This document shows, piece by piece, positions 40,369-58,320 of a stretch of DNA of 64,000 nucleotides. Below the pieces are notes generated by a model, which did no database searches, was not told the DNA's origin, and was given only the letters and a program-made list of their open reading frames with translations. Each line of letters begins with the position of its first letter. The stretch's first letter is position 1. The position numbers and the translations under genes are program-made. This stretch comes from Diplocarpon mali (taxonomy: Eukaryota; Ascomycota; Leotiomycetes; Helotiales; Drepanopezizaceae): contig JAENRP010000012.1 of assembly GCA_024741835.1 (NCBI GenBank), positions 186,001 through 250,000 of the forward strand. The letters run 5' to 3'.

Positions 40369-41785
40369 ATGCTATTAAGTCTGTTATACCTTGCTGGAAC
40401 GCTTTCCTGCTACACGGCAGCTTCAATCCCTCGTCCCAAGAATGTCACTGTCGGACTCGGTTACATCTCTTTGCCTGTAATTGCTGTAAACAACACAGGC
40501 GGATCCATTCACAAGAGGCAAAACGACGTTGATATATTCAATACGGATTTGGGAACTGTGTACCTTGTTCATCGTAAAGATCCTGTCTCCCCTGTAGTAT
40601 CTGTTACTCAGGATCCGAGGAAATTTCGAAGAGGTGTTGACAATTCCCAGTCGCTCTAGGCACACCTCCTCAGCCGGTTTATTTGCTTCTTGATACTGGC
40701 TCATCGGAGACATGGGTCGACCCAGATTGCACTAAAGTCAGCTCCGCGCATCAAAAGGCTGAATGTAACGGCTTTCCGAAATATGACCCCTATAGCTCGT
40801 CGACGGCATACGATGTTGGATATCGCTTCGATCTCGCATACGGCAAGGGAACGGCGTCTGGCGAATATTTGCTGGATACCTTCTATGTGTAAGCCACACT
40901 CAGTATCCGTCCCATTTGTCTCTAAGAACTTGTGGCAATGGCTAACTCAACTATGATCCAGTGGTGGTAAGCAGAATACTGGAAGGTGACTCTAAGCTAA
41001 GCATCAAGCGCAGGTGCCACAATCACAAATCTACAGTTCGGGGTGAGAACACTCCGTTGCCGTTTTGGTCGAAAAAAATATATAATTTTCAGTACTTGCG
41101 ACATACCATCATCCATCTTTCGTAGCCCTAGGATTTGCCATGGGGGGTTGCTGACAGAGTCCAGTGGGCCGACACGACCACGTCTGCGTTTGCAGGTATT
41201 ATAGCTACAGGATTCGGCTATGAAATCGCCGGGTATTATGGTCTAGTCGACGAGATGTATGTGCAAGGCATTATCAATTCTCGGGCTTTCAGTCTCGACC
41301 TTGGAAGCATCGACTCGCCCGCAGGCTCAATCCTCTTCGGTGGAATCGATACAAAGAAGTTCACGGGAAGCCTCGAGAAACGCCCGATAATTGCACCAAG
41401 CCGCAGCCCCGACGGAGAATTGCGGTTTGTATATGCTTCCTGCAACCCACTAGAAGGCGCTGACCTTCTCCTTGAGGTATTGGATATATATGACCTCTGT
41501 CGGCATCACAAAGCCAGGAGCTACCACTTCCAAACGGTACACCGTTGCTCCTCCAGCATATCAGCAGCCTGTGTTTCTAGACAGTGGCGGGACTTTGAGC
41601 GCGTTGCCATCCAACCTCGTCGCTGCCATGCTTTCCGATTTTACCGGTGTTGTTGATATAGGGAGCGGTCTATACCTAGTCGATTGCATTCAGACTACCC
41701 AGAGTGGTACTCTCGACTTTGGATTTGGCAATACGATTATCAAAGTTCCATACAACGAATGGATCTGGGAGCCAACACCCGGCGA
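40369..41785 (+). CDS. Secreted pepsin-like aspartic protease, 5' part (split by retrotransposon)
   Basis: Six exons are inferred: 40369-40573, 40660-40888, 40962-40966, 41014-41042, 41165-41424 and 41477-41785. The start MLLSLLYLAGTLSCYTAAS is a signal peptide. PPQPVYLLLDTGSSETWV holds the first catalytic Asp (DTGSS) and VFLDSGGTLSALPSNL the second (DSGG). The microexon of 5 nt restores VGGATITNLQFG; without it the frame fails. The first splice junction gives HRTPPQ where relatives have IGTPPQ. The gene continues at 57656, after a 15.87-kb intron that contains the retroelement. Both parts together give 534 residues in one frame. The family (pepsin A1, candidapepsin/yapsin-like) cleaves proteins at the cell surface or outside. 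Whether the gene is still expressed cannot be told. Confidence 0.75.
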
Positions 41786-41885
41786 GTAAGTCCAAGGGGA
41801 TCCCATGATGCCCACACCTCCTCGTAGCATCTCATAAATGATCGAAAAGGCCTATATGAGCAATGACTGACTCCACCTTACCTAC

Positions 41886-42130
41886 TGTGAAGACCTGAGA
41901 TGGATAGGTCTCGTGATATATATCATATGATCGGCGCAGGACGGTGGGAGGATAAAAGGGCCATCTTTTGTATATAGAGATAGCGCGTGTCGCTATAGTA
42001 CTGAATATACCCTATACTTGGGACTTGTTCCTAATATCTTATTTAAGAGAGCCCGCTTGTGGTGCTTCCTCCTCTTGTTTTTAGGTCTTCCCTTAGGCCT
42101 ATTCTTATGTTGTCTCCCTTTAGTTTTATA
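41886..42130 (+). repeat. 5' LTR, 245 nt
   Basis: Begins TGTGAAGACC and ends TTTTATA. A canonical LTR ends in CA; the TA here is what CA becomes by a C-to-T change. It contains GGATAAAAGGGCC, a possible TATA region. It differs from the 3' LTR at 14 sites, all transitions, with no length change. Confidence 0.93.
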
Positions 42131-42131
42131 T

Positions 42132-42149
42132 TGGTGACTTATGCAGGGA
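42132..42149 (+). other. Probable primer-binding site
   Basis: TGGTGACTTATGCAGGGA begins one base after the 5' LTR with TGG, as expected for pairing with the CCA end of a tRNA. The tRNA identity was not determined. Confidence 0.5.
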
Positions 42150-42802
42150 CTGATTTCTTGAGATTTCCGTCCCTATACGACCTTATCGATCTCTTGATTC
42201 GCAGATAAGAGACCGGCCTTTGAAATACGTCTTCGAAACACTTATAGCATTTTGATCAACTCTAAAACCCTTATCTTCAATCGCTTAGTTACTTGGAACT
42301 GTCGATTTTCGTTTAGCAACTATTAATAACCTTAGATTTTCCCTTTTCGGCTCTGCTTTGAAAACCCTTATTTTCTTCCTTAACTCTGAGATTTTCGGAA
42401 TTTTCGGCTCCCTGGTATGAAAAGTTTGGCGGACCCTATAATGGTAATCTCAAACAGCAGTGGTTTCGAGTACTCGAGTAATACCAAGCGCAAACTTCAA
42501 TCGGAAGTGCCTCTTTAGAATCCTTAGAAATCCGAATCTGATAATTCAGCTGCCTCGGCTCGATAAAACTTTAAAAATTGCCCTGGAATTGTCTCTGGAG
42601 ACCCCTTTATTCTAAAGACTAATAGGAATTAGCCTAGAGGCTAAGAAGAATCTTAGATATAAACCTTATCTTGGAAATTGGTCCTAGATTAGGTAAACCT
42701 TATCTTATTGCGATTAGTCGCGACGCTCCTATTGGCTGTTTGGTACCTACTTGGAATCTCTTGGCAAACTCGGATTAAACTTTTAGCAGAATCCGGAATT
42801 CT

Positions 42803-42825
42803 ACTCCTGGGCCCGGCCTACGAGT
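42803..42825. repeat. Palindrome copy 1
   Basis: ACTCCTGGGCC, C, GGCCTACGAGT. Lies near the start of the gag frame. It is the only copy before gag proper and is out of the gag phase. Confidence 0.85.
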
Positions 42826-43811
42826 GGGAGGATAAAAAGACGTCCTTGAACAACTCGGGACTACCACCTATTTGTTTAATGTCGATACTAGAAAACACTG
42901 AAAACAATAACAATTTTGAACTTTTCACTAACCTTTTATTTGAATCTTTTCAAACTCGTCCTAGTCACTTTGAGATTGACTCGGATTCTGAACGTTCTTT
43001 AAGCCCTTTTGAATTTTAAAGTACTCCTCTTAGTAACTAATCACGCGATATTAAAGCTTCCCATTTGCCCCCTATGGATTCTATTAATCTGGACGGTTAA
43101 TATAAAATGATAATGGCTGCATTTAAGGCCATTATTAGCCACTTTCCCCTCCTTAGTTCCCCTAGTGCTCCTTACTTTATAAGAGCTAATATTACTGATT
43201 TCCTTAAGCAATATAAGGAAACTTGTTATGATTTTAGTATTTTATAAGCGGATATGATTTCTCGGCTCCCTCGCTACTATGACTATATAAGCAAAGATAT
43301 TATCAAATCCCTCCTTAAATAGAAGACGTATAATTTATGGGAACTCCTTGTTAAGGCTCTTAAGTCTGAATTCCGAGAATTTGACAGATAATAGATTTGC
43401 GACACTCTGGCTTTTTTAAAGGAATTTGTTCTGGTCACTCGAACTCCTAAGGAACTTAAGAACTACTATCGGACTTTTACCTATGTGTCGAATACCTTGA
43501 TCAGCTAGAAAATACTTAGCGAAGTTGAAAGAGGTCGCCTTTTCTTGCTCGGATTACCTACTGGCCTCTGAAACAAGATCATTAAGCATTTTAGGATCGA
43601 TAAGTAAGACCTTATAACCTTTGCCTCATTTGAGGAATTCTCGGCCTTTGCTTTGAAATCAGATCTTAGTGAGAGAACTATTGATGCTATGGAGTAGGAA
43701 AAAGCCCCTACTCCCTCCTATACTAAAGACCTTAAGAGCCTGGTCCAAGAATACTCGAAAGCTCTGGAAGTTATAGAAGAGGCAAAGAAGAACCTAGTGG
43801 TTATACCTTTC

Positions 43812-43834
43812 ACTTGCGGGCCCGACCTAGGAGT
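43812..43834. repeat. Palindrome copy 2
   Basis: ACTTGCGGGCC, C, GACCTAGGAGT. Inside gag and in phase, read as TCGPDLGV. Confidence 0.85.
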
Positions 43835-45727
43835 GAGATCTAACCCTAGAATTGAGGAACTTGAGACCCAATTTGTAGAACTCTAAATCCAAAGCTTGGA
43901 AACTAGGATTAATAATCTCTTATAGGAAAAACAGCATGTTTTGCAATTTGGTAATAGGCAAAACTCGGCTACTATAAGCCAACCTAGTGGTTCCTGTTAC
44001 TAGACTCCTGCTTCTCGTCATTCGGAACAACTAGCTAATATAAGAGCGCAATAGCTGGCTGAAGAAGGAGGAATTGATCTCAACTAGCCCTTTGCTAATA
44101 TTAATACTATAGGGTACTAAGGAAACGGTAATAGAAGACGACTAACCTGTAACTTTTGCAATAACGAAGAGCCTAACTGCGCTCTATATGAGTATTGTAA
44201 CGATTGCCCTCTTTTCCTTCGTTTTATTAACACTGGGGTTATATATATTAATAAGTATAGGATGCTTTGCATTAGGGATCCTAGGCTAAAAGCTATCCCT
44301 ATCAAAAAGCACCAGAATCGCTTATAGTTATAGACTGTTTGAATAATGACATATAGTATGAAATAGGACGAGAATTTGGTTGAACGATAGTGTATTATAG
44401 ATATAAATGCTAAAATTCCAACTTATATATATATAGGTCTAACTAGCAATCTACCTAAGGGAGTTCTTAAGGACCTAGCTTCTGATTAAACAGCTACGGA
44501 AGTTAGAGGCATCTCCGTCTTAGGATGGGTTAATAATAATATTTTAGCTGATATTAATGCTGCTTCTATGTTTAGAAATCCTTGGAATACTTAGCATCCT
44601 TTTAGATCTACTACTCCCTTAATACTGATAAAACCAGCTAAAGTCTAGAAATCAACGCGTGCAACTTAGGAATCTTAATATGGAGTCCAAACGCTGAAAG
44701 ATACCTAATAGTCTGGAACTGCAGTGGATAAGGATGAAGCTGATATAGTAGACGAATTGATTAGAGATGTAATGGACGAAGATGGCTTTGAGCTTGAAGA
44801 TTAAGAAGTTGAAGTTATTGCGCGGACCCTTGACCTTAAGCGAAAGAGACAGATGTTAAAACGGGAAAAATTCGTTGATAAATACGCTAGTTCAACTGCA
44901 ATAGAGAAAGCCGTAGAGAATGTCATAGCCTAGCAAATTAACCTTACGTTTAAAGACTTGTTTGGTTTAACTGGACGCTTTGATAAAGTGCTAGGAAAGC
45001 ATATCCTAGTTGCCTTTAAAGATTTGAATAATAATAAGGAAATGGAAATTGTAATGCGAAAGAACTTTGAGAAGCACTTAGCCTTAATCAAATGTCTCTA
45101 GATTGCAGAAGACGAAGGAACCCAGAGGTACTACGACATTATGGCGATGGCTTTAATATCTTAGAATATTAACTGAAATTGTTCAGCAGTTGCGATGAAA
45201 AGCCCTATTGTTATTTGTTCTATAGAAGAATCAGTTAAAGCAAAGGCTTTGATCGATTGTGGTTCAGAAGTTAATGCAATGACTAGAAAAGTGGCGGAAA
45301 TGGCTCGATTGACAATCGTTAGCGATCGACTCCTTATTTATTCGACTGTCTCTAGATCGAAATACAATTTTGATGGATGGGTGAAAAACGTGAAGGTTAG
45401 AGTTGGAGGAATCGTTAATTACACTGACTTTCTAGTAATGGAGAATTCTTCGAACGACATTCTTTTAAGAATGCCCTTTATTTTAGAATCTTAGCTAACA
45501 TTTAACTATCCTAGAGATAGGCTTATAAAAGCTAGCCTTTAGAATACGGATCGATCCTTAGAAGGATAAATGGTTGTCGCAGGAGATGTAGCCGAATTTT
45601 AAAACGAGGTTTTAGGAAACGATTAGCTAGTATAAGGGCTAGGCTTAATGCTAGTAAAGGAAGGCACCTAGCGAGGAGTTATAGTGAAAGAAAGGTGAGT
45701 TTGTCGATTTTGAATAATGGTGATTTG

Positions 45728-45750
45728 ACTCGCGGTCCTAGACCGGGAGT
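45728..45750. repeat. Palindrome copy 3
   Basis: ACTCGCGGTCC, T, AGACCGGGAGT. At the gag-pol junction in the pol phase, read as LTRGPRPGV. It is 162 nt from copy 4. Confidence 0.85.
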
Positions 45751-45889
45751 TAAATCTGGAATTTTGAAAAATGGTGCAATCGGCGTTTTATTGGCTTAAT
45801 AATTAAGAAAAAAGAAAAATAAGGTGGAGAAGAGAGTTCGTTTTATAAATTTCGATAATTCACCAATCATTTTGAAAAACCTAAAAACC

Positions 45890-45912
45890 ACTTACGGGCC
45901 GGACCCGCGAGT
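45890..45912. repeat. Palindrome copy 4
   Basis: ACTTACGGGCC, G, GACCCGCGAGT. In the pol phase, read as TYGPDPRV. Confidence 0.85.
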
Positions 45913-47856
45913 GAAAAACAATAAAATTACTAATAACATTTCCATCTACGCACTTTAAATTAACGACTTAGAAAATCTTTTATTTATTTTTAAAAAGGAA
46001 AATTCGAACCGTTTTATAGGATTTGATAAAAAAGGAAAGAAGCAGAGAAGCATAGTACTAGCTAATATTTGAACTATATATAAAAGTAAGGCTAATAAAG
46101 TACGACCGGTGGATTAGGGAATCTCTGACGGCTTGAAGCCTAGAGGACTGGATGATTGGTTTGAATAAGATAAGAAGCTTCGACCTTCGAAGCCGGGTGG
46201 CAAATTTGATAAGTTCATTATAGGTAGATTTTCTGATAAACCCATTGGATATCGACTAATAAAAGAACGTTTCGATATGCTGAAAATTGGAGAAGACTTG
46301 ATAGAGCAAGAACGCGAACTACTCTATAAAACCTTGATAAATCGAGAGGACGCCTTGGCTTTTGACTAGACGGAACTTGGCTAGATTTAAGAAGAGGTTA
46401 CGCCTTATATTGAGATTAAGATAATACCCTACGAAGCCTGGCAAGAGAAAACATTCGGGGTCCTTAAAGCTCTTTAAGAAAAGGTAATCGAAATGTTGAA
46501 GGATAGGCTAAAGCAAGGTGTTCTCGAGTTCTGTAATAGCCCTTATAAGAACAAATGGTTCCTGGTTGCTAAGAAGGAGAAGGGAACTTATAGACTAATA
46601 ATAGCGGTAGTGGAGATGAACCGAGTAACTGTTAGAGACGCTAACGTTCCTCCGAATGTGGATGAGTTCTCGAATGAATTCGTAGGATTAACCTATAGCT
46701 CTCTTATTGACTTCTTCTCTAGATATAACTAATTTATTCTTGACGTTAAATCGAGAGATATGATAGCAATTCAAACCCCTCTCGGGCTACTTCGGATGAT
46801 AAGATTACCTTAAGGGGCTATAAATTCGATCGCTCAATTTGTCTAAGTAATCTATAAGATACTGGTAGATTGTATACCTAATATTGCGCTCCCTTATATG
46901 GACGATATAGGAGTAAAAGGATCAAGATTATTCTACAATTATAAAGAAGTTCTCCTTAGTATATGGCGATTTATAATAGAATATATTTAGAACCTGGACT
47001 AGGTGCTTATACGATTTGAAAGGGCAGGAGCAACGGTCGGTCCGAAGTTATAATACTGTCTTCCATCGATGGAAATTGTTAGTTTTATTACTGATTCCAA
47101 TGGCCGAAGTCCTTAAAGGGCTAAAGTACTTAAAATCGACGAATGGAAGAGGTGTGACGACGTGGCGGAAGCTCGCGCGTTTATTAGCGTTATAGTATAC
47201 TATTGCATTTGGATTAAGGATTTTGCTAAAAAGGCAGCACCTATTTACTCCTTGTTTCGGAAAGGGGCTGATTTTCAGTAGGAGGAACCTTAAATAGAGG
47301 CTATAAAACAACTGAAGCAAGCGTTGCTTAAGGCGCTATATCTGATTAAAATAGACTATAGAGCCGACGCTAGGCCAATTATACTAACAGTTGACGCAAG
47401 CTTAATCGGATGGGGTGCTATCCTTTAATAAGCTAATAGCTAGTAGAAAAGACATCTAGCTCGCTTTGAAAGTGGTCTTTAGAATCTAGCGGAGATAAAG
47501 TATAATACTATTAAATGGGAATGTAGAGGCGCCCTAAAGGCGATGAAAAAGATGAGAAGCGACCTCTATAGTACTCACTTCATCCTTGAAACCAATACTA
47601 AAGTGCTAGTAGAACAATTGAATAGAGCTGCAAGCGACCTACTAAGAGCTTTGCTAATGAAATGGATTGCTTAGATAAGACTGATAGACTTTAAAGTCAA
47701 ACACATTCTAGGAATGAAAAACACCGCCGCCGACGGCCTTTTAAGAAGAACTCGTCCCTACCCCTCTGATTTGATTGAAGAAGACGAAATAGATATTAAT
47801 GAGTGGGTAGAGAACGAAGTTGGTTGTCTGTCGATATATCGCCTCAAAGGGACTCG

Positions 47857-47879
47857 ACTCGCGAGCCCGGCCTGCGAGT
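47857..47879. repeat. Palindrome copy 5
   Basis: ACTCGCGAGCC, C, GGCCTGCGAGT. Between RNase H and integrase. The only internal copy in another phase, read as TRLASPACES. Confidence 0.9.
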
Positions 47880-49291
47880 CAAATAAGAGAATTTTATCAC
47901 TTGACTACTTAGGTGACTCTGAAGAAATCGCAAAATTTTTAATCACGCTTAGACGACTAAAGATAGTTGCTCTTAAAGATTTTTAGAAATTCAAAGCTAA
48001 AGCTCTGATTTATCTAGTGCGAGAAAGACGATTGTTTAAAAGGAGCGATAACTTATTCCTTATACGACTCTGCTTAGACGACGAAAAACTAAGGGCTAAG
48101 GCTATCCAAGATGTTCATGAGGAAACTGGCCACTAAGGAGCTGAGTCTACCTACTACTGACTCTTAAGGAAATTCTTTTAGAAGGGTTCTTTTAAGGACT
48201 GCAAAGTCTTTGTGAAAAGTTGCGTCCCTTGTCAGAAACGAAAACCTGGTTGTAAAGAGAATCCCCTGTTCCTAACTTGGCTATTAGGCCTTTTCTATAA
48301 AGTCAGTTTTAATATTATATGAGTACTAATAACTGAAAATGGGATTATATATTTTGTTTTAGCAAAGGAAGACCTATTAGGATGGCCTAAAGGACAACCT
48401 TTGAGATCTGCTAACTCTGAATCTATTGCGAAGTTCCTTTAAGAAGACGTGGTCTGTCGCTATGGACTTTTTAGCAGACTAACTGTTAATAGAGGCCTTG
48501 AAAATAAAGGAGTGGTTAAAGCTTTTTTGCGAAAATATAGTATTAAATGGGTTCAAATCTTAGCGTACAACTCGAAAGCTAATGGAGTGATAGAGCGAGG
48601 ATATTGCGACATTCTTAATAGGCTATCTAAAGTTACCTGCGGAGGATTTAAAAATTGGATAAAACACTTTTATAGAATACTCTTTGCTTATCGAACGACA
48701 ATCTATAAACCAACTGGAGTTATACTATTTTTCCTTATCTACGGCAAAGAGGCATAGCTCCCTCTTGAATCCCGATGGCCTGTTTAGAGATTGTTTGACT
48801 ATAGTCAAATTTAGAACCGTTCCGATTTGCTAGCGATGAGATGCCGATAACTTAAGCTCTGAGATATGGATATAAAGGAAATCATTCTGCAAAAGAAACG
48901 ATATAGGGAAAAAGCTAAAGAAGCATAGGCTGCTTTTAAAGTACTTAAAACGCACTCTATTTAGAAAGATGATCTTATCCTAGTCTACGATATTATAAGA
49001 AGCATTGATATATCGGTAGATACTAAACTTGACTATCGATGGCTTGGCCTATTTAAAGTTAAATCTGAGCAGAAAGAAAAAGGATACTATTCTCTTTAAG
49101 AACTTGACGGAGTTGATATTAAAGGAACCTTTGCAGCCAATCGACTGAAGCGCTTTTACCGATGCGATTAGACCTTGTTCCCTTTAGAAGACGAATCAGA
49201 AATTGATACAACCTCCGAATCTTCTGCAGGAACCGACGGCGATATAAGCAATTTTAAACCCTTAGACAAAGACTAAGATTTTTCCAACTTG

Positions 49292-49314
49292 ACCTATAAG
49301 CCGGTCCTGCGAGT
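49292..49314. repeat. Palindrome copy 6
   Basis: ACCTATAAGCC, G, GTCCTGCGAGT. At the C-terminal end of pol in phase, read as TYKPVLRV. The most decayed copy. Confidence 0.75.
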
Positions 49315-50558
49315 GAAGAATGTTAAAATACCCAACTAATCGCGACCCTAAGTTATTATTCTTGAAATATTCGAAGAACGCAGACTGGAATACTGAACGA
49401 TTTCCTAGCCTATCAATTGTCCTACCTTCCTTTAATCCTTATTTTTACATTTTCGGTAAGGACGCCTCTTTTGTTATTTGGGATATAGATCTTTTAGGAT
49501 CACCCTAAATTCTTGCCTGCTCTGACTTATTTTGCATTCTTGATATTGGCCTTTAATTATAGCATTCCTATTACTTTCCTTGAATAACAAACTAAAAAAA
49601 AGTCCAATTTCCTTAATATATATATAGTAAACCTATTGCAGCTTGTATGCCCTTTTAATTCTTGCATCCTATTGAACTCTCTTATTCATACTCCCTATCT
49701 TTCATAAGTAATATGCCTTTAAAGAACTCATAAATGGTTTTGTCTGCTGCGATAGGGGATGAACAAACACTGGTTATAAACTTCTCTTAGGACGGCAGAG
49801 CTATTGCATTGTTGGAAAACTTCAAATCGACCTACGCAGCCTTAGGAGATATAGAGCAATAAAAACTCCTTTCAGCTTATGCGAATGCCATTAATAACCT
49901 TTCAACTCGAGTGGCCCTTGGAATTCTCCAATTTGACGACTTCCTAACCGAAGAATTAAGACTGAAGGGAATCTCTAGAGAGGAATTCTTGGCTGACGCA
50001 GATTAATACATGACCTTGGCCGACACTTTCAGAACGGACTGAGATAAAAGAGAAGAATCTATTCGACGATTGGATAATTTAGCTATTGATAAGAGAGGAC
50101 TCCTGTTTCGTTCGCGCTTCCTGATAAATATTGATTCTAATAATGGAAGACGAGTGTTGTTAAAAATTCTTAAGGAAAACACTCCTACTGCTAGAGCTAT
50201 TCAGATTCTCAATTTCTTTATTATTTAAGAAGGAGTAGTAAAATTCCGAGGCAATCGAATTCGCAGTCGCAGATTTGTGGGCCTATCTAATGCAGTACTT
50301 ATAGCAGCTGATAGGGCTATGAAAAGATCAAATTGGGCTATAGATGTTACCCTACCTAATAGCACTGTTGTTAATATGCTAGGGCTCTGCGCTTCTGCTT
50401 GTGGTTTGCTTGTTTTAAGAGAGAACTGGACTCTTATAATAGGGTTTGGACGAAATTTCTTTAATAATAAAGAAGGGAATTGGTTATTTGTGGTCAAGCC
50501 TGCCTTGAAATTCGCTTCTTAACCTAAAGATACAATAAGTGCTAAACCATATGATTTG

Positions 50559-50581
50559 ACTCGCAGTCCTAGACTAGGAGT
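50559..50581. repeat. Palindrome copy 7
   Basis: ACTCGCAGTCC, T, AGACTAGGAGT. In ORF3, read as LTRSPRLGV, at the position that matches copy 10 in ORF4. Confidence 0.85.
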
Positions 50582-51944
50582 TAGAAATGAGAATTTTAGA
50601 ACTGGACTTAACCTGCCTTTTGCTGAAATGATTCCAGAAACCGCTGCCGAACAAACTGCCCGAACGCTTAGCGCAGCCTCTTTGGAATTTTCGGAATCTT
50701 CAAGGGACTCTCCTCTAGCTGAATGACCCATTTTAGCTCGACCTCTAAGAAGGATAGATCGTTCGATAGCCACCTTAGCTGATTTGCAATTTGAAACTAA
50801 AGGATTGCGCGCTCGCTTAGACTCCTTCCTTAACAACTTGAAGGAGCTAGTTCTTGACTTCTTTGTATCTATATGCAACTGTTTTAGAAACGATAATATA
50901 GGGGAAGACCCTATTCCTACTGCTCTAGAGACGACTGGGAGAGCTATTAGATAGATTCAATGGCTTATCCTAGACGAGTTCGCCTCTACGGATATTGTTC
51001 AATTCTTTAATGATTATAGAAGTCAAGAACCTGGTCTCTCGGATGCCGAGCGAGACTATTTTGTCTTGCGAGAAAGAGAACGCAAAGAGGAATCTGTTAA
51101 TTAGGACATTTGTGATTGTAGCAATATGCCTCAATCGGTCATTCTCAACCTCAAGCTTAGAGAACGATATAACATTCAGGTGTCCTTTGTAATAAAGACT
51201 TGCTTTCGACAGTATCTTCCTAGCGTAGGAATCAAAGGGAGAAGACTTTGCGACCTTTATATTCGCTCTCTTTTGGTTTACTATGGTCTCAATTATAAAG
51301 GATTTGATATTGACGAAACTATTGAACACCTCGAACTTCTCTACGCGGTAGAAGATGTCGATCTTTTTCTAATCTACCCTAATAATTAGTTCTTCGTCTC
51401 TTCAAGGATACGCAAATCCAACCTATTGATAATGGAGGCATCTCTAGGTGCTGCAAAATTCAGGGCTGATCCTAAAGCCTTAAAGGCGTTGGAGCCGATT
51501 GAATGGAACAATTCTTTCTTTTCGATATTGCTAAGCAATGAATAGTAAGAGGAAATAGAGGAAGAAGGGTCAATTGTGATGCCTAAACCCTTCGGATGCC
51601 GCTTCTTAACCGACAATTTTACTACTGATGATAGTGCTTTTATAGGTATATTCCTCTTTATTATGAGATAAGAAGTAGAGATATACCTTTATCACTTCTG
51701 CCCTATGGATAACGCGACCTTTATACCTTCTTATTTTCTCTATAATATGATGTTCAGCCTTACCTAATAAGTCCTTTGAATGCATTATGGACTCTACCTC
51801 TTAGCTATAATAGCGAAAAGTGGAGGAGCCTATCAGCTTATGGCCTACCTTGAACCTCCCTAATTGATTGGCCTTGGTCTTTACAATTAAGTCGTTTTGA
51901 TAAAGAGAGATGCAAGTGCTGCTAATAAAGAAATTCCGATTTTC

Positions 51945-51967
51945 ACTCGCGGTCCCGGCCCGCGAGT
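51945..51967. repeat. Palindrome copy 8
   Basis: ACTCGCGGTCC, C, GGCCCGCGAGT, one mismatch between arms. In ORF3, read as TRGPGPRV, matching copy 12 in ORF4. Confidence 0.93.
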
Positions 51968-52829
51968 CAATTTTATTGGAAAGCAAGTCTTGGATTATTA
52001 GATCCTACCGATCGGATAAGGGCCAGCTTTTAGAAGCCTTAATAGGTGGGTCGGCTCTTAGTCGATTGTGAAACTCACTCTATCCGCGAAGAAGACGAGT
52101 CAATGGACTTCTTAAGCACTCGGTTCAAAATCTTAACTAGCTCGAATGACCGCAAAGTTGAAGCGAAAGGAGATCTTGCGACCTATTACTGATGATAGCA
52201 ATCCAATTATAGTGATGATGAAATAGGGACACCTTCTTGAAATGCTTTCGGATAATTCTTATAGGACTGGTGGTTTTATAGCCTTTTGCAATAATTACAT
52301 AGCTATCTTTAATAAGAATACCTTGGAAAATGAGACTTGAATCTCCGATTTTGTCTTTTCAATCTCTGCTCTAGAGCAACCTCTAGTACCTCGATAGATT
52401 AACGCAAGCAGAACCATTGCACCTTTTAAGGCAGCTTTTCATCTTAAGAACTGCGGTAGCCTCTTTGAAGCTATTATTAGTCGACGCTCTTAGATAGATC
52501 TATTAGTTATGATTGAAGTACGGGAGTTGTTTCTTTTTAATAAAGACGAATTGAAAATCCACTTTGTAGAATATAATTAGAAGCTCTTTAACGCCTTTGT
52601 TAAGGCTTGGACGAACGTTATAAACACTAAGTCGCTTCTTTATAGACTTAAGTCTTAGGGATAGCGCGATAAAGTAAATGCTATCCGAGAGCCTGATGCA
52701 CTGATTGATAAAGGCATTATTGCAAGAAAATTCGGAAAAGAGATAAACCGAGACGCTAGCATAGTGTTAGACCCTGATTTAGGAACCAATCCCCTGTTTT
52801 TACCCTTAAGCTCAGAAACGCTAAGACTG

Positions 52830-52852
52830 ACTCGCGAGCCCGGCCCGCGAGT
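52830..52852. repeat. Palindrome copy 9
   Basis: ACTCGCGAGCC, C, GGCCCGCGAGT, one mismatch between arms. Near the ORF3 C-terminus, read as LTREPGPRV, matching copy 13 in ORF4. Confidence 0.93.
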
Positions 52853-54479
52853 GAGGTTGGACTCGGCTGGCTTAAGCCCACGAGATGGTTCGGATGAACC
52901 TCGGTCACTAAATCTAGGGGTACTAATAGAAGATCCTTTAAGAGAGGTCCCCGAAGCTGAGAAATCGCTGAGAAATGAGAACTAATGCAAGAGAAGAAGA
53001 CTCCGAAGTGACGATAGAATTGACAATTGAGTCAACTTGAGCCTAGAGAATCGAGTCTACTACCTCCCTCTTGAAAACCATTTGGAGAGATTGCGAATTA
53101 GAAGTTGAATTTTTTTAGGGATTATCTACTTTCTATACACCTGCACCTCTTTATTCTCAACCTATTGTTCCATTCTATGCATATTCTTTATTTACTTTAC
53201 TCTTTATATAATTCATTCTTTGATTATTCCCTTTATATGCAACTTTCTAACGCTCACCTTTGAAATGTCTTCCTCACCTTTGACAATTGTCATTCACCAA
53301 TTGTAGGTCCTTGTATACGTCACACCCCACTTTTGTTCCCACTTCCAAGCTCATTATGCCTACTTTTCCTTTGTGTACTAGCGCGATTTCAAACTCTATA
53401 AATAAGCCTCTCCCCGCACTACGATTTTACTTTTTTTACCTTTTCTATAACCCTACCAGACCTATAACACTAGCACCACTACTATTGTCTTTCGTTATCA
53501 ATCTTTTCTAGTATAAGCCTCTTATATTGTTAATCTTTCCTAAATAATTATCTCTTCGTTTAGAGCTACCTCTCCTGCTAAATAATTTATTATAGTACCA
53601 CTAACCATAAGTAAAAAGGCCATACCTAAGAAGAATATATCGGTTGTTGCCTTAGGCAATAAGTCCTTGAGCACTACTAATAATGAACTAATATTAGAGG
53701 GAGGGTTCTTATAGGATGGCAAGTCACTAAGATCATTAGAAGATGTAGTGAGCACTTATAGAACGTTGGGTGAGACCGAACAGCAGGTATTCTTAAATTC
53801 ATCTATTAAGGTGCTTAACTATAGAATTTCTACTGTTAAGGAAGGATTCTTAGGTTTTAATGATTTCTTAGACAAGGAACTCTAAGGCAAAGGTATTGAT
53901 TATGAAAAGTTTTTGCAAGAGTATTAAGGGTATGCCAATTCGATTGATTTGTTTCGGAAGAACTGAGATAAGAAAAATGAGTGTATGAAAAGACTGATAT
54001 AGTTTATAAGCGGAATACGCGGAACGCTCTTTCGGAGCCACTTTATAAATGATATTACTGCGAATAATGCTTTGCGGGGACTCGGCAAGATTTTTGAGAC
54101 ATACTAACTAGTGGCCAAAGCTATACAGGTGTTGAATCATTTCACTATCTAAGAAGGCATAAAGAAGTTGCAGGGAAATAGTGCGCGGAGTAGAAAATTT
54201 GTTAGATTCTTAAGCACCATTGTGCACTCTACTATTCAAACTATAAAGGACAGCCCCGCTTGGTATAATAATCTTGCACTCCTTAACTAAACTGTTCTAG
54301 ATACGCTCGGCCTGCAATAGTCATAATACGGTCTACTTATTGTAAAAGAAAAGATGATATATCTGGTTGAATACACTATGAACTACTTCGATGATGAAAT
54401 GGAGAGATGGGAATTTGTTATGCCTGCCGCCCTGAAGCTACTACTACCCGCGGCAGGATTAATAGACAAGCGCGATTTG

Positions 54480-54502
54480 ACTCGTAGGCCTGGCCCACGG
54501 GT
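54480..54502. repeat. Palindrome copy 10
   Basis: ACTCGTAGGCC, T, GGCCCACGGGT. In ORF4, read as LTRRPGPRV. It is 186 nt from copy 11. Confidence 0.88.
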
Positions 54503-54665
54503 AGAAGTACTACGTGATGAAGATGCCCTTGAGCATAAGGTGCCTGTGATATTGGGAACACAAATGGCTGACTGTTACGACCCTTATTTATTAGACTCAG
54601 ATGAGTTTGAATTGCTGTCCCTAGAAATGCCCTAAATACCCTGAACACCAGTGGCAAAGAAAATG

Positions 54666-54688
54666 ACTTGCGAGCCTGGCCTACGGGT
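54666..54688. repeat. Palindrome copy 11
   Basis: ACTTGCGAGCC, T, GGCCTACGGGT. In ORF4, read as MTCEPGLRV. Confidence 0.88.
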
Positions 54689-55895
54689 TAATATACGTGA
54701 CGCTATAGACTCAGAAGATGATTTATCTAATAAAGAGATTGGTACTGTTACTAATGTGCTAGAAATTTTTAATGATACTAAGAAGGATACTGCTGATGTT
54801 GTGCAATCCTTCCCCGATGACTTGCAAAAATTTGTTCTCAAATTCTACGAGTCAATAATGAAGCGTTTGAGAAAGGAAGGTCGGGAAGAAGTTTTGTTAG
54901 CATAGGAAGGAACGGCAAGAGCTGTTAAACAAATTATGAAACTGCACTAAGACGAATTCTCTATAGACAATATTATATAGTTCTTCATCGACCGCAAGAA
55001 ATTGAACGGTGACTACTATATTCTTAAAGAAAAGTCAGAAGATAGCACGACTATTGTCTCTATGGAATGCTGTCAAGTTCCCCTTAACATTAAGATGATA
55101 CTATAGCATAGCGATAGATTCAAGATTGTAGTAATACTAGAAATGAAAACAAGACTCTCTAAATTTGTAGTAGGAATGTTCGAGGACTTTAATTTTAATA
55201 AATTCTGCGCCCTCTATGAATGACAATACGCGTAGTACTATAGGCTGGCGATAACAGGCCTTAATAATAAAGATATGTCGTCTAACATCTACAAATTCTG
55301 CACTGCTCCTGACCTAAAGTTGTTCTTACTGCACCTAGGGAATTATGCAATTATGGCCACCGGCAATAGAATGGCAAGCTAGGTTAAAAAAGATATGTCG
55401 TTAGGATTTGCTAAGTTTAAGGTAGCGCCCAAAGCTCTGAAATTATTCTATAATATCGCCTGGACCCCCGCCTGGTATAAGTCCATACTGACCTTAGACA
55501 ACTTCATATCACTCTATAGCAAAGGCTTTTTGAATATGCCCAAACTGTTTAGTTGCGCATTCTTAGGCATAGTGCGCACATAAGGCTATGGTATTCGCGG
55601 GAAGAGTTCGTTCGTGACTTTGGCATAGGAAGAGGTAGAAATGTATAGACACCATTTCCGCACCTTAGATAAGAAATCATTACCACCTTCCGCCTTCCTC
55701 TATAATATAACTTATAGCTTAATATAGTAGACCTTAAGGATGTACTATAGTCTGTATCTTAGTGCTCTATTGACTTATTATAATTCTTTATATAAGCTGG
55801 TGGCGTATCCTAAGCCTGCACAGTTTGTAGGCATTGACTACTATTCGCGAATTGTTTCTACTAAGATTAACGCTAATACGAGATTCGTGAGATTG

Positions 55896-55918
55896 ACTCC
55901 TGGGCCCGGCTTGCGGGT
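55896..55918. repeat. Palindrome copy 12
   Basis: ACTCCTGGGCC, C, GGCTTGCGGGT. In ORF4, read as LTPGPGLRV. Confidence 0.88.
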
Positions 55919-56717
55919 TAATCCACCCGACAATAGAACCATTGACTACTACGTGATTCCGGCAGCTAAACAATCGACTGGAGAATTCGCTGTTTGGGAA
56001 AAATCCTATGAATTATCAAATCTCACACCCTAACGCCTTAAGAATGCTTAGTGGATCTTACTGAATTTGGCTCGAAATGCAGTATAACGGAAAGAATTGA
56101 ATATTAGAGAGAAGACACTTCTAGAGGAGTACATCTCCAACGAGACGACTCCGTTCTCTGTGTTTATTAGATAAGGCACGTTCGTTGATATAGAATCTGC
56201 TAGAGAACTAGGAAAAGGTGGCTTCCTCACTATTAGCAACAACTATATAGAAGTTGTTAGCAATAACTCACTAGAGAATGGCATGGACCTAGAAGATTTT
56301 CTTATCGATTCCATTGGCATAAAGAGACCTAGCATTGCAAGATGGAGTGTTGCTAGAGAATCGTTAGCCAAATTTCGTGCAACGCTCGGCATAACAAAAG
56401 GAGGCCTATTGTCAGAAGCTCTTATAAGAAGACGACTATGGAATAACCCATTGGTGGTAATGATTGTAAAGGATTTGTTCGCAAAAGATGTGTCTTAGCT
56501 AATAGCATACTTGAAGAAGCACGAATAAGAACTTTTTAAAGATTTTGCCAGTACTTAGAAGCTGGTTTAACAACTGGAGCTACAGTTGTATAGCGATAAG
56601 TCTTGGACAAAGACCAAGGACATAGATGATAATATCGAAGCTGATAACCTAATTGACGAGACGATACTTCTCGAGAAGTACAGCACTAAGAAGCCTTGTG
56701 CAAAAACCCCTGACACG

Positions 56718-56740
56718 ACTCCTGGGCCCGGCCCGCAACT
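56718..56740. repeat. Palindrome copy 13
   Basis: ACTCCTGGGCC, C, GGCCCGCAACT. Near the ORF4 C-terminus, read as TTPGPGPQL. Confidence 0.85.
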
Positions 56741-57132
56741 TGATTTAGCGAAGGGCAAGGCTAAGGAAGTGGTATCCGTGGAATCTCCCGCCTCCCCCTC
56801 CTCTATTACCGACAATTCCCCTAAGGATGATGACGATGATAATAATAATAACGCCACTACACAAGTCTCTCTCCCTATTAGTAGAAGCCGCCAAAGCACA
56901 CTAGCATCTGCCCGAACCACCGAAGCTCCCGCTACACCGAGACCTGTCTCGTCGGACACTAATAGCGATGCTATAAGAAGAAGTGGTCGTTTGGCGAAGA
57001 GAGTGTTATCTAGTAATAGTTCTCCTTATCCTTTAAAGAGAACTAAGGAAAACTGATACCTAGGTTGGTTCTATTTTAATTGTTTTTGCGATTCTATAGC
57101 TTGTTTGTTTGTTTTGCTAGTTTTGTTTTCTA

Positions 57133-57155
57133 ACTCCCGGGCCCGGCCCGTGGGT
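57133..57155. repeat. Palindrome copy 14
   Basis: ACTCCCGGGCC, C, GGCCCGTGGGT. Outside any ORF, 77 nt after the ORF4 stop and before the 3' LTR. Confidence 0.88.
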
Positions 57156-57178
57156 GAAAAGCGTATAAAAAAATAAAA

Positions 57179-57216
57179 NNNNNNNNNNNNNNNNNNNNNN
57201 NNNNNNNNNNNNNNNN
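57179..57216. other. Assembly gap (38 N) in an A-rich tract
   Basis: Unresolved bases between two A-runs upstream of the 3' LTR. The real length may differ. Any polypurine tract of the element would lie between here and 57404. Confidence 0.95.
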
Positions 57217-57404
57217 AAAAAAAAAAAACTCCTCTTTTTTTTTACCTTTGATAATAATATAGCCCTAGTTTAGGCCTTTTGATATATTAGTTTTCTCGCA
57301 CTTAAGGGTTTGCTAGTGATTGACATGCTATTGCTTTGACTTATATCGTTTTGTATTCTTTGCTAATAGTAGTGGGGGCCACTACTTTTGTTGTTTAGGA
57401 TATA

Positions 57405-57649
57405 TGTGAAGACCTAAGATGGATAGGTCTTGTGATATATATCATATGATCGGCGCAGGACGGTAGGAGGATAAAAGGGCCATCTTCTATACATAGAGAT
57501 AGCGCGTGTCGCTATAGTACTGAATATACCCTATACTTGGGACTTGTTCCTAACATCTTGTCTAAGAGAGCCCGCTTATGGTGCTTCCTCCTCTTGTTTT
57601 TGGGTCTTCCCTTAGGCCTATTCTTGTGTTGTCTCCCCTCAGTTTTATA
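57405..57649 (+). repeat. 3' LTR, 245 nt
   Basis: Begins TGTGAAGACC, ends TTTTATA, and is the same length as the 5' LTR. Fourteen transitions separate the two (about 94% identity). Several lie at CA/TA or TG/TA pairs, the RIP context, and both LTRs hold mutated forms. Confidence 0.93.
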
Positions 57650-57655
57650 CTACAG

Positions 57656-58320
57656 ATGCTATTTCGGTGCAAGGGCCGGAGATCCTGCGGTGACGAGCTC
57701 ATGGATATTAGGAGGTGAGGTCAACTCGCGAAGCCAGCTTGTATGCTCGCTGATTTGATGCAGACACTTTCCTGAGATCTTGCTATAGTGAGTCTATTGC
57801 CCATCTATGGACTCGAATACTCACAATTCCAATAGCTGTCTTCGATCAGGACAACGGCAACCTACTCCTGGCGCAATATCAGGACTGCGGCTCTAACATC
57901 ATTCCGATCGGCTCAGGGGTCAATGCCGTCCCTTCCGTCACGGGAGCTTGCAGGCCAACACGCACTGCTGCCTCTATCACCTCGAAATCTTCCACCCGTC
58001 CATCCAAGTCCCCGAGTACCGGCAGTCCCAAGGTTACGGTCTCTTCGTCGAAAGCGGCATCTAGTTCCGTCAAGTCGTCCTCGTCAAAAAAACCCTCAAG
58101 CCTCAGCTCCTCCAAAGGTCCATCCTCCACGAAACCACGCTCAACCCAGCCCGCGAAAAGTACGGCTAGTTCAGCGTCAAAAAAATCGAGTTTGTCCCCC
58201 TCAAAATCAGGTCCCGGTTCCAAGCTTTCCACGGCATCCACCACAGCAAAGCCCACAACCCTGTCTAGCTCAAAATCCTCATCGGCATCAAAGAAGAGAA
58301 CTTCGACTCAGAAGCCGTAA
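57656..58320 (+). CDS. Secreted pepsin-like aspartic protease, 3' part
   Basis: Exons 57656-57714, 57764-57787 and 57836-58320 continue the protease begun at 40369. The joins give CYFGARAGDP, then SSWILGDTFLRSCYTVFDQD, the conserved C-terminal lobe motif (ILGD-FLRS-Y-VFD). QYQDCGSNIIPIGSGV follows. The remaining 125 residues or so are a Ser/Lys/Thr/Pro stalk, like the linker of cell-wall or GPI-type yapsins. No hydrophobic GPI tail is seen before the stop, so the protein may be secreted free or wall-bound by its basic stalk. Exon lengths of both parts sum to 1,605 nt, a multiple of three. Confidence 0.78.

Follow-up and report, generated by a model that had tools for sequence, protein, structure and literature searches.

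A palindromic motif shared by several unrelated long terminal repeat retrotransposons of Diplocarpon mali

We analysed a 64,000-nt stretch of the Diplocarpon mali genome (contig JAENRP010000012.1, positions 186,001-250,000; hereafter the window) and searched the whole assembly (49.4 Mb in 676 contigs) for a GC-rich palindromic motif, 14 copies of which lie in a single Ty3/gypsy-type long terminal repeat (LTR) retrotransposon of the window. The motif belongs to several unrelated LTR retrotransposon families and not to one element. Its copies have a common core and tips and occur in several families and in two orientations, and almost all of the coding ones share a single frame; they also form local tandem arrays, and none was present in the homologues retrieved from outside Diplocarpon. 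The reading that we favour, and to which we give an even chance, is that the palindromes are copies of one frame-compatible palindromic mini-element that has spread among unrelated LTR retrotransposons of this lineage.

Carrier families and genome-wide distribution

The original prediction, made from the window only, described 14 palindromes of 23 nt confined to one retrotransposon. All 14 coordinates do carry 23-nt palindrome-type sequence, at intervals of 162 to 1,967 nt (Table 1), and the confinement holds within the 64 kb: a consensus tolerant of repeat-induced point mutation (RIP) matched 13 of the 14 copies and nothing else there, the copy at 49292 being too decayed, and the reversed consensus gave no match. 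Genome-wide it does not hold, as a copia family, another gypsy family and a short element related to the one in the window also carry the motif. The ideal 23-mer is absent from the window, where the closest copies (51945 and 52830) have one mismatch each. The prediction had also named two outcomes that would count against it: shuffled sequence yielding similar counts, and the motif turning up in unrelated parts of the genome. Shuffles gave no copies at all. The second outcome came about in part: the unrelated sequence in which the motif was found consists of other LTR elements, with no copy in host DNA seen among the places examined.

A strict pattern matched 123 places in the genome (reversed control, 0), and a related pattern allowing up to 3 mismatches matched 331 on the forward and 328 on the reverse strand (reversed control, 0 and 1). 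The RIP-tolerant consensus gave 174 matches, 157 of them distinct, across 303 kb of loci that were picked for matching the motif or the element and that include overlaps; its reversed form gave none. The carriers fall into four families. F1 is the gypsy family of the window element, which has two extra open reading frames (ORF2 and ORF3) downstream of pol; of 263 candidate copies of its reverse transcriptase (RT) region, 40 were scored. F1b (L042, L048, L053 and L061) is a short F1 relative in which gag is joined to the 3′ end. F2 is a Ty1/copia family (RVT_2, E 1.5e-17; 40 of 198 candidates scored), and F3 is a second gypsy family, with a GC content of up to 0.50 among the loci examined (L045). 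Of the 123 strict places, 50 were listed: 21 were examined as sequence, 14 sit at the expected distances from family matches and 15 are unplaced, leaving 73 unlisted. All 21 examined places lie inside these four families, the assignment of two of them (L064 and L072) to F3 resting on how far they lie from a match to that family, and no copy in ordinary host DNA was found among them. Beyond this genome, a narrower pattern had no match in a prokaryote genome collection, and three matches in viral contigs look like chance, each a single match within a GC-rich contig. As a separate observation, no more than ~1 kb separates gag from the 3′ end and LTR in F1b (L042, L048). This family has palindromes of its own and is perhaps a non-autonomous derivative.

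Among retrieved protein homologues, an intact copia polyprotein of Diplocarpon coronariae (P0007; 1,491 aa, 91% identity over the queried 501 residues) has five motif copies, and the 86 others, many of them incomplete, only distantly related or without coverage of one or the other linker, have none. The Rhynchosporium homologue (55% identity over almost the entire length) has a gap of 27 residues that spans the two motifs between Gag and protease (PR), and its linker between integrase (IN) and RT is variable. Assemblies of D. coronariae are reported to span ~50-54 Mb, of which roughly 20% is copia sequence (PMC11527701). Another peptide, N[KQR]DVE, recurs in 7 of 89 scanned proteins (P0003, P0004, P0008, P0009, P0022, P0020 and P0028; twice in P0003); it sits in the copia IN-RT linker in the first five of these and might be another small coding repeat.

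Form, reading frame and persistence of the palindromes

The family consensus, RATTYS-ACTCSYGGKCC-N-GGMCCRSGAGT-SRAWTY, consists of a GC-rich 23-nt core and AT-rich tips that together form a dyad of ~35 nt. The earlier description of odd palindromes with 11-nt arms is right for the family type; no window copy is perfect, and because the copies form Watson-Crick pairs at 5 to 10 of 11 arm positions, the word palindrome describes the family and not every copy. That description did not include the conserved tips, nor the fixed reading frame and tandem arrays reported below. Tip information exceeded background at positions -6 to -1 and +2 to +4 (p < 0.005), with nominal signal (p 0.01 to 0.03) at +1, +5, +8 and +12, across 26 sites that are partly related and hence not all independent; the tip pattern TYN...NRA also fits 82 strict copies, and we estimate that base composition would give ~2-3. 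A genome-wide search for a core with a 2-nt centre returned nothing. No covariation was found between the arms (231 of 308 pairs, compared with 228.5 in shuffles between copies; 28 sites, p = 0.34) or within the tip pairs, so the symmetry is a property of the family consensus and is not repaired copy by copy. Core positions 9 and 15 pair little above chance at the 50 listed places (20 G-C, 10 T-A, 10 T-C and 10 G-A). Of 13 copies folded as RNA, 4 had z < -2.5, 5 had z < -2 and 2 had a positive z; with arm pairing no better than shuffled, these values speak only faintly for the genomic RNA hairpins that had been proposed. The contrast of GC islands with AT-rich surroundings, also part of the prediction, does exist and is in part a by-product of RIP, which has left a strong pattern among F1 copies (C to T in 55% of cells when the next base is A, 28% for G, 17% for T and 6% for C).

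Sixteen coding sites were considered (12 from the window, two from F2 and two from F3, with tandem copies counted once). In 15 of them the core is in phase 0, meaning that its ACT is read as a codon, and since chance would give one third this corresponds to p = 8e-7; when the three ORF2/ORF3 pairs are merged, 12 of 13 sites remain in phase 0 (p = 2e-5). The sole exception is the core at 47857. The phase-0 peptide is T-[PR]-GPGP-[RG]-V plus decayed forms, and both orientations were found, giving TPGPGPRV or TRGPGPGV. Coding copies occupy the PR-RT and RNase H-IN linkers, gag, the pol end, ORF2 and ORF3 in F1, the Gag-PR and IN-RT linkers in F2, and the PR-RT and RNase H-IN linkers in F3, the last assigned by position and reading and not by Pfam. 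Non-coding copies lie in the 5′ leader and 3′ untranslated region (UTR) of F1 and in the 3′ UTR of F2; a coding assignment of this F2 copia palindrome was ruled out, as it sits after the stop codon. The same palindrome adjoins a short tandem repeat (L058:419-560; an A-tract plus TCACC units, + strand). With respect to polyprotein borders, many sites fall between domains, and others are in UTRs, inside ORF2/ORF3 or off-phase. Among 20 coding sites, 30 of 32 transversion differences lie on core positions 5, 9, 12, 15 and 19, some of which were allowed to vary in the patterns that yielded the F2 and F3 sites; positions 9, 12 and 15 are third codon positions. Two further third positions, 3 and 21, show transitions only, and 9 and 15 are restricted to G/T and C/A.

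At the loci examined, F3 arrays comprise 2-3 units at 45-nt spacing in the PR-RT linker and 1 or 4 units in the RNase H-IN linker, and F2 spacings are 45, 48, 54, 66, 72 and 78 nt. All array spacings are divisible by three, and 45-nt tandem steps recur at three unrelated sites. Given that neighbouring units have common flanks, the arrays look like local tandem duplications and not new arrivals. The palindrome sites are old within families: at three RT-region sites of the window element the palindrome is present in 28, 29 and 29 of 30 F1 copies (a 113-nt deletion and two alignment rows in which homology breaks off account for the rest), and the F3 PR-RT site is spanned in all 40 scored copies (of 176 candidates), four of which carry ~45 nt extra. 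Loss of palindrome 45728 from L011 was considered as excision and rejected, since it is the 113-nt deletion with unrelated ends, and an ORF3 stretch of L048 considered as an empty site for 54666 proved to contain the palindrome. The arms at 47857 are lengthened by ACTCG / CGAGT in some copies (L011, L015 and L026), and its three left-arm alleles are clade-linked, requiring 3 changes on the tree. Ongoing palindrome conversion, suggested by an excess of transversions that 1.3% of background windows equal, was dropped as an account of these alleles because of this clade linkage.

The window element

We class the window element as Ty3/gypsy-type because of its domain order PR-RT-RNase H-IN, in which RT itself falls below the Pfam cut-off; it also has paired LTRs and a target-site duplication. 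The two LTRs differ at 14 of 245 positions, every difference being a transition. The location of the motif is of nuclear and not mitochondrial type, with LTR elements on contigs of up to 560 kb and the AT-rich window element, with its target-site duplication, flanked by DNA of 50% GC. ORF2 and ORF3, at ~1,100 residues each, are an unusual accessory pair for a 15.8-kb gypsy element, and a Pfam search with both matched no family. Open frames at 41454-41789 and 57754-58320 adjoin the ends of the element, whose insertion may have hit a host gene or the DNA next to one. Near palindrome 14, 38 consecutive N at 57179-57216 mark an assembly gap in the 3′ UTR of the element (46 N in the whole window).

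Table 1. Window coordinates of the F1 retrotransposon, its domains and its palindromes
Feature	Position	Strand	Remarks
4-bp target duplication CTAC	41882-41885 and 57650-57653		
Ty3/gypsy-type LTR retrotransposon (family F1)	41886..57649	+	15,764 nt; RIP-decayed; two extra ORFs
5′ LTR	41886..42130	+	245 nt
Palindrome 1	42803..42825		5′ leader, apparently non-coding
Palindrome 2	43812..43834		gag, phase 0, TCGPDLGV; same site in short relative L042/L048/L053/L061
Aspartyl protease region	45093..45560	+	PF13650, E 1.6e-6
Palindrome 3	45728..45750		PR-RT linker, phase 0, TRGPRPGV
Palindrome 4	45890..45912		PR-RT linker, phase 0, TYGPDPRV
Reverse transcriptase region	46442..47200	+	RVT_1, weak, E 0.014, below curated cut-off
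RNase H	47300..47755	+	PF17917, E 5.6e-14
Palindrome 5	47852..47884 (core 47857-47879)		RNase H-integrase linker; core phase 2, outer ACT phase 0
Integrase, H2C2 zinc-binding domain	48002..49240	+	PF17921, E 5.3e-14
Palindrome 6	49292..49314		decayed; near pol C-terminal end, phase 0, TYKPVLRV
Extra ORF2, stop-broken	49701..52988	+	no Pfam family
Palindrome 7	50559..50581		ORF2, phase 0; aligned with palindrome 10 (ORF3)
Palindrome 8	51945..51967		ORF2, phase 0; aligned with palindrome 12 (ORF3)
Palindrome 9	52830..52852		ORF2 C-terminal part, phase 0, TREPGPRV
Extra ORF3, stop-broken	53601..57058	+	ORF2 paralogue, 30% protein identity, E 1.7e-120
Palindrome 10	54480..54502		ORF3, phase 0, TRRPGPRV
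Palindrome 11	54666..54688		ORF3, phase 0, TCEPGLRV; also in diverged copy L048
Palindrome 12	55896..55918		ORF3, phase 0, TPGPGLRV
Palindrome 13	56718..56740		ORF3 C-terminal part, phase 0, TPGPGPQL
Palindrome 14	57133..57155		3′ UTR, non-coding
3′ LTR	57405..57649	+	245 nt

Known palindromes and possible origins of the motif

The original prediction aptly likened the motif to Rickettsia palindromic elements (RPE) and to the GC clusters of yeast mitochondria. RPE are described as palindromic repeats of 105-146 bp whose copies occur both within protein-coding genes, where they keep the frame, and elsewhere (PMC2229807), and protein-coding palindromes are also reported from Wolbachia and Methanocaldococcus (PMC2996958). 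The motif is likewise a palindromic family in frame within protein-coding genes; unlike RPE, which are bacterial and sit in cellular genes, it is fungal, has a 23-nt core with tips to about +/-6 (~35 nt), and was found only in LTR elements among the 21 strict places examined. GC clusters are described as short GC-rich palindromes, thought to be mobile, with unit mergers and shuffling, presence/absence polymorphism and AG target sites (PMC4478555). The dispersal of a GC-rich palindrome through AT-rich DNA is common to both, whereas the clusters are mitochondrial and our motif is carried by LTR elements and lies in frame where these are coding, with no single-site polymorphism among 30 F1 copies at three sites or among 40 of 176 candidate F3 copies at one. 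By analogy, the motif would work most like RPE and appears to resemble GC clusters; because it departs from each in size, genome or site, we file it under neither.

Other systems are less close. PARCEL repeats share coding dyad symmetry, tandem arrays and, in some taxa, a tie to mobile elements, but they are described as 75-nt repeats encoding a 25-residue amphipathic helix (PMC2996958), in contrast to an 8-residue Gly-Pro peptide here. The Conserved Hairpin Site of GalEa elements is also a palindromic feature of fungal copia elements, described as one 9-nt pair just past the 5′ LTR that replaces the primer binding site (PMC5445492); by contrast, the first window copy starts 672 nt past the end of the 5′ LTR, the many other copies are dispersed over linkers and UTRs, and gypsy elements carry them too. 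Nematomorph mitochondria have perfect inverted repeats of up to 284 bp within coding sequence, whose arms encode conserved protein regions (PMC6649704), but these are not one dispersed family. A literature search over titles and the beginnings of abstracts, with subscription journals mostly outside its coverage, returned no account of a motif of this kind from the LTR elements of fungi.

Of the three options offered in the original prediction, parasitic mini-elements fit best, with the amendment that several LTR families are involved and not this retrotransposon only. The mini-element would have entered Diplocarpon LTR elements as an insert and would have been copied between co-expressed elements during reverse transcription or repair, needing no enzyme of its own, and copies would survive where carriers tolerate them, in the inter-domain linkers of polyproteins and in untranslated ends. 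Template switching between co-packaged RNAs would explain a restriction to LTR elements. We infer such mobility from the common core and tips, the two orientations, the mixture of coding and non-coding sites, the unrelated carriers and the absence from retrieved relatives. Insertion is favoured by the five copies in P0007 against none in the 86 other proteins, many of them partial or distant, and by the 27-residue gap of the Rhynchosporium homologue. A bolder version, which we put forward tentatively and hold to be rather less probable, is that the motif is a hyperparasite: a palindrome of ~35 nt that spreads by itself from one LTR retrotransposon to another, unrelated one while these are reverse-transcribed. 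It would survive within their proteins because, whichever way round it lies, it is read as an innocuous Gly-Pro linker, and it would be a very small protein-coding mobile element of the eukaryotic nucleus.

Several observations weigh against a mobile mini-element. Clean empty sites were not found in any family examined (30 F1 copies, three sites), none of the 40 F3 copies scored among 176 candidates has a motif-size gap at the PR-RT site, and inspection by eye recognised no insertion target-site duplication in the palindrome flanks, where dyad symmetry is present. The clade-linked arm alleles at 47857 give no sign of current movement. Were two phases open, tolerance would predict a less uniform phase than is seen (12 of 13 sites, p = 0.002). 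Two ORF2/ORF3 palindrome pairs align although the proteins are only 30% identical, and a third sits just past the end of the alignment, which the common motif may itself help to draw together; over such divergence a neutral passenger should have decayed. The fixed phase and this apparent persistence count most heavily against a neutral passenger and favour a peptide or nucleic-acid function. Absence outside Diplocarpon rests almost solely on copia relatives (F3 contributes one relative, and no F1 protein search was made), and the copia IN-RT linker is too variable for a clean insertion to show.

A functional peptide is the form of this alternative that we consider rather unlikely but the strongest competitor: T-[PR]-GPGP-[RG]-V would be a flexible hinge or a processing site between polyprotein modules, found in several element families because one protease or host factor recognises it in all of them, and the DNA palindrome would partly follow from Gly-Pro repeat codons. 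The phase at 15 of 16 sites agrees with this, as do positions between domains (PR-RT, RNase H-IN, Gag-PR and IN-RT), the concentration of 30 of 32 transversions on five core positions that include third codon positions 9, 12 and 15, and the apparent persistence across ORF2 and ORF3. Yet the copies in 5′ and 3′ untranslated sequence follow the same consensus, a peptide does not require the limits seen at third positions (transitions only at 3 and 21, G/T and C/A at 9 and 15), the core at 47857 is in another phase, and the two orientations encode two different peptides. The other form is a nucleic-acid signal, that is, a dyad-symmetric binding site or RNA element on which several LTR families would depend (for packaging, dimerisation, transcription or chromatin), its in-frame placement following from the mostly coding make-up of the element. 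In its favour, dyad symmetry reaches into the AT-rich tips, conservation of the outer positions extends to third codon positions, copies occur at both transcript ends and along the whole length, and the core with a 2-nt centre is missing. We nevertheless judge this signal unlikely, at slightly lower probability than the peptide, given that neither the arms (231 of 308 pairs against 228.5, p = 0.34) nor the tip pairs covary, folding z-scores are modest, 14 copies in a single element exceed the needs of a packaging signal, and a frame-neutral signal would not keep one phase.

Two further explanations fare worse. Palindromes could mark module borders at which template switching exchanges or duplicates domains in frame and spreads the palindrome in the process, as the inter-domain positions, the palindromes at matching places in the ORF2/ORF3 duplication and the joining of gag to the 3′ end in F1b might suggest. 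The gag homology of F1b, however, stops between palindromes and not on one, and swapped modules were not seen, though no search for them was made; such recombination joints are improbable as the cause. That the copies are artefacts of RIP or chance, CpA-poor islands left standing in an AT-rich element, would draw on the sparing of CpC-rich stretches by strong RIP, but we regard it as already refuted: shuffles and reversed controls gave 0, or 0 and 1 against 331 and 328, the motif is also present in the GC-richer gypsy copy L045 (GC 0.50), and its peptide also occurs in an intact Diplocarpon protein.

For bacteria and archaea, palindromic inserts that keep the frame have been considered as a means by which proteins acquire new segments (PMC2996958). 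A eukaryotic example on both copia and gypsy elements would be a countable system, with 123 strict and some 330 looser matches. Its carriers are datable with the help of LTRs and RIP, and several strains and species of the lineage have been sequenced. Whichever of mobility, a peptide or a signal lies behind it, the presence of one sequence in one frame in unrelated polyproteins needs explaining.

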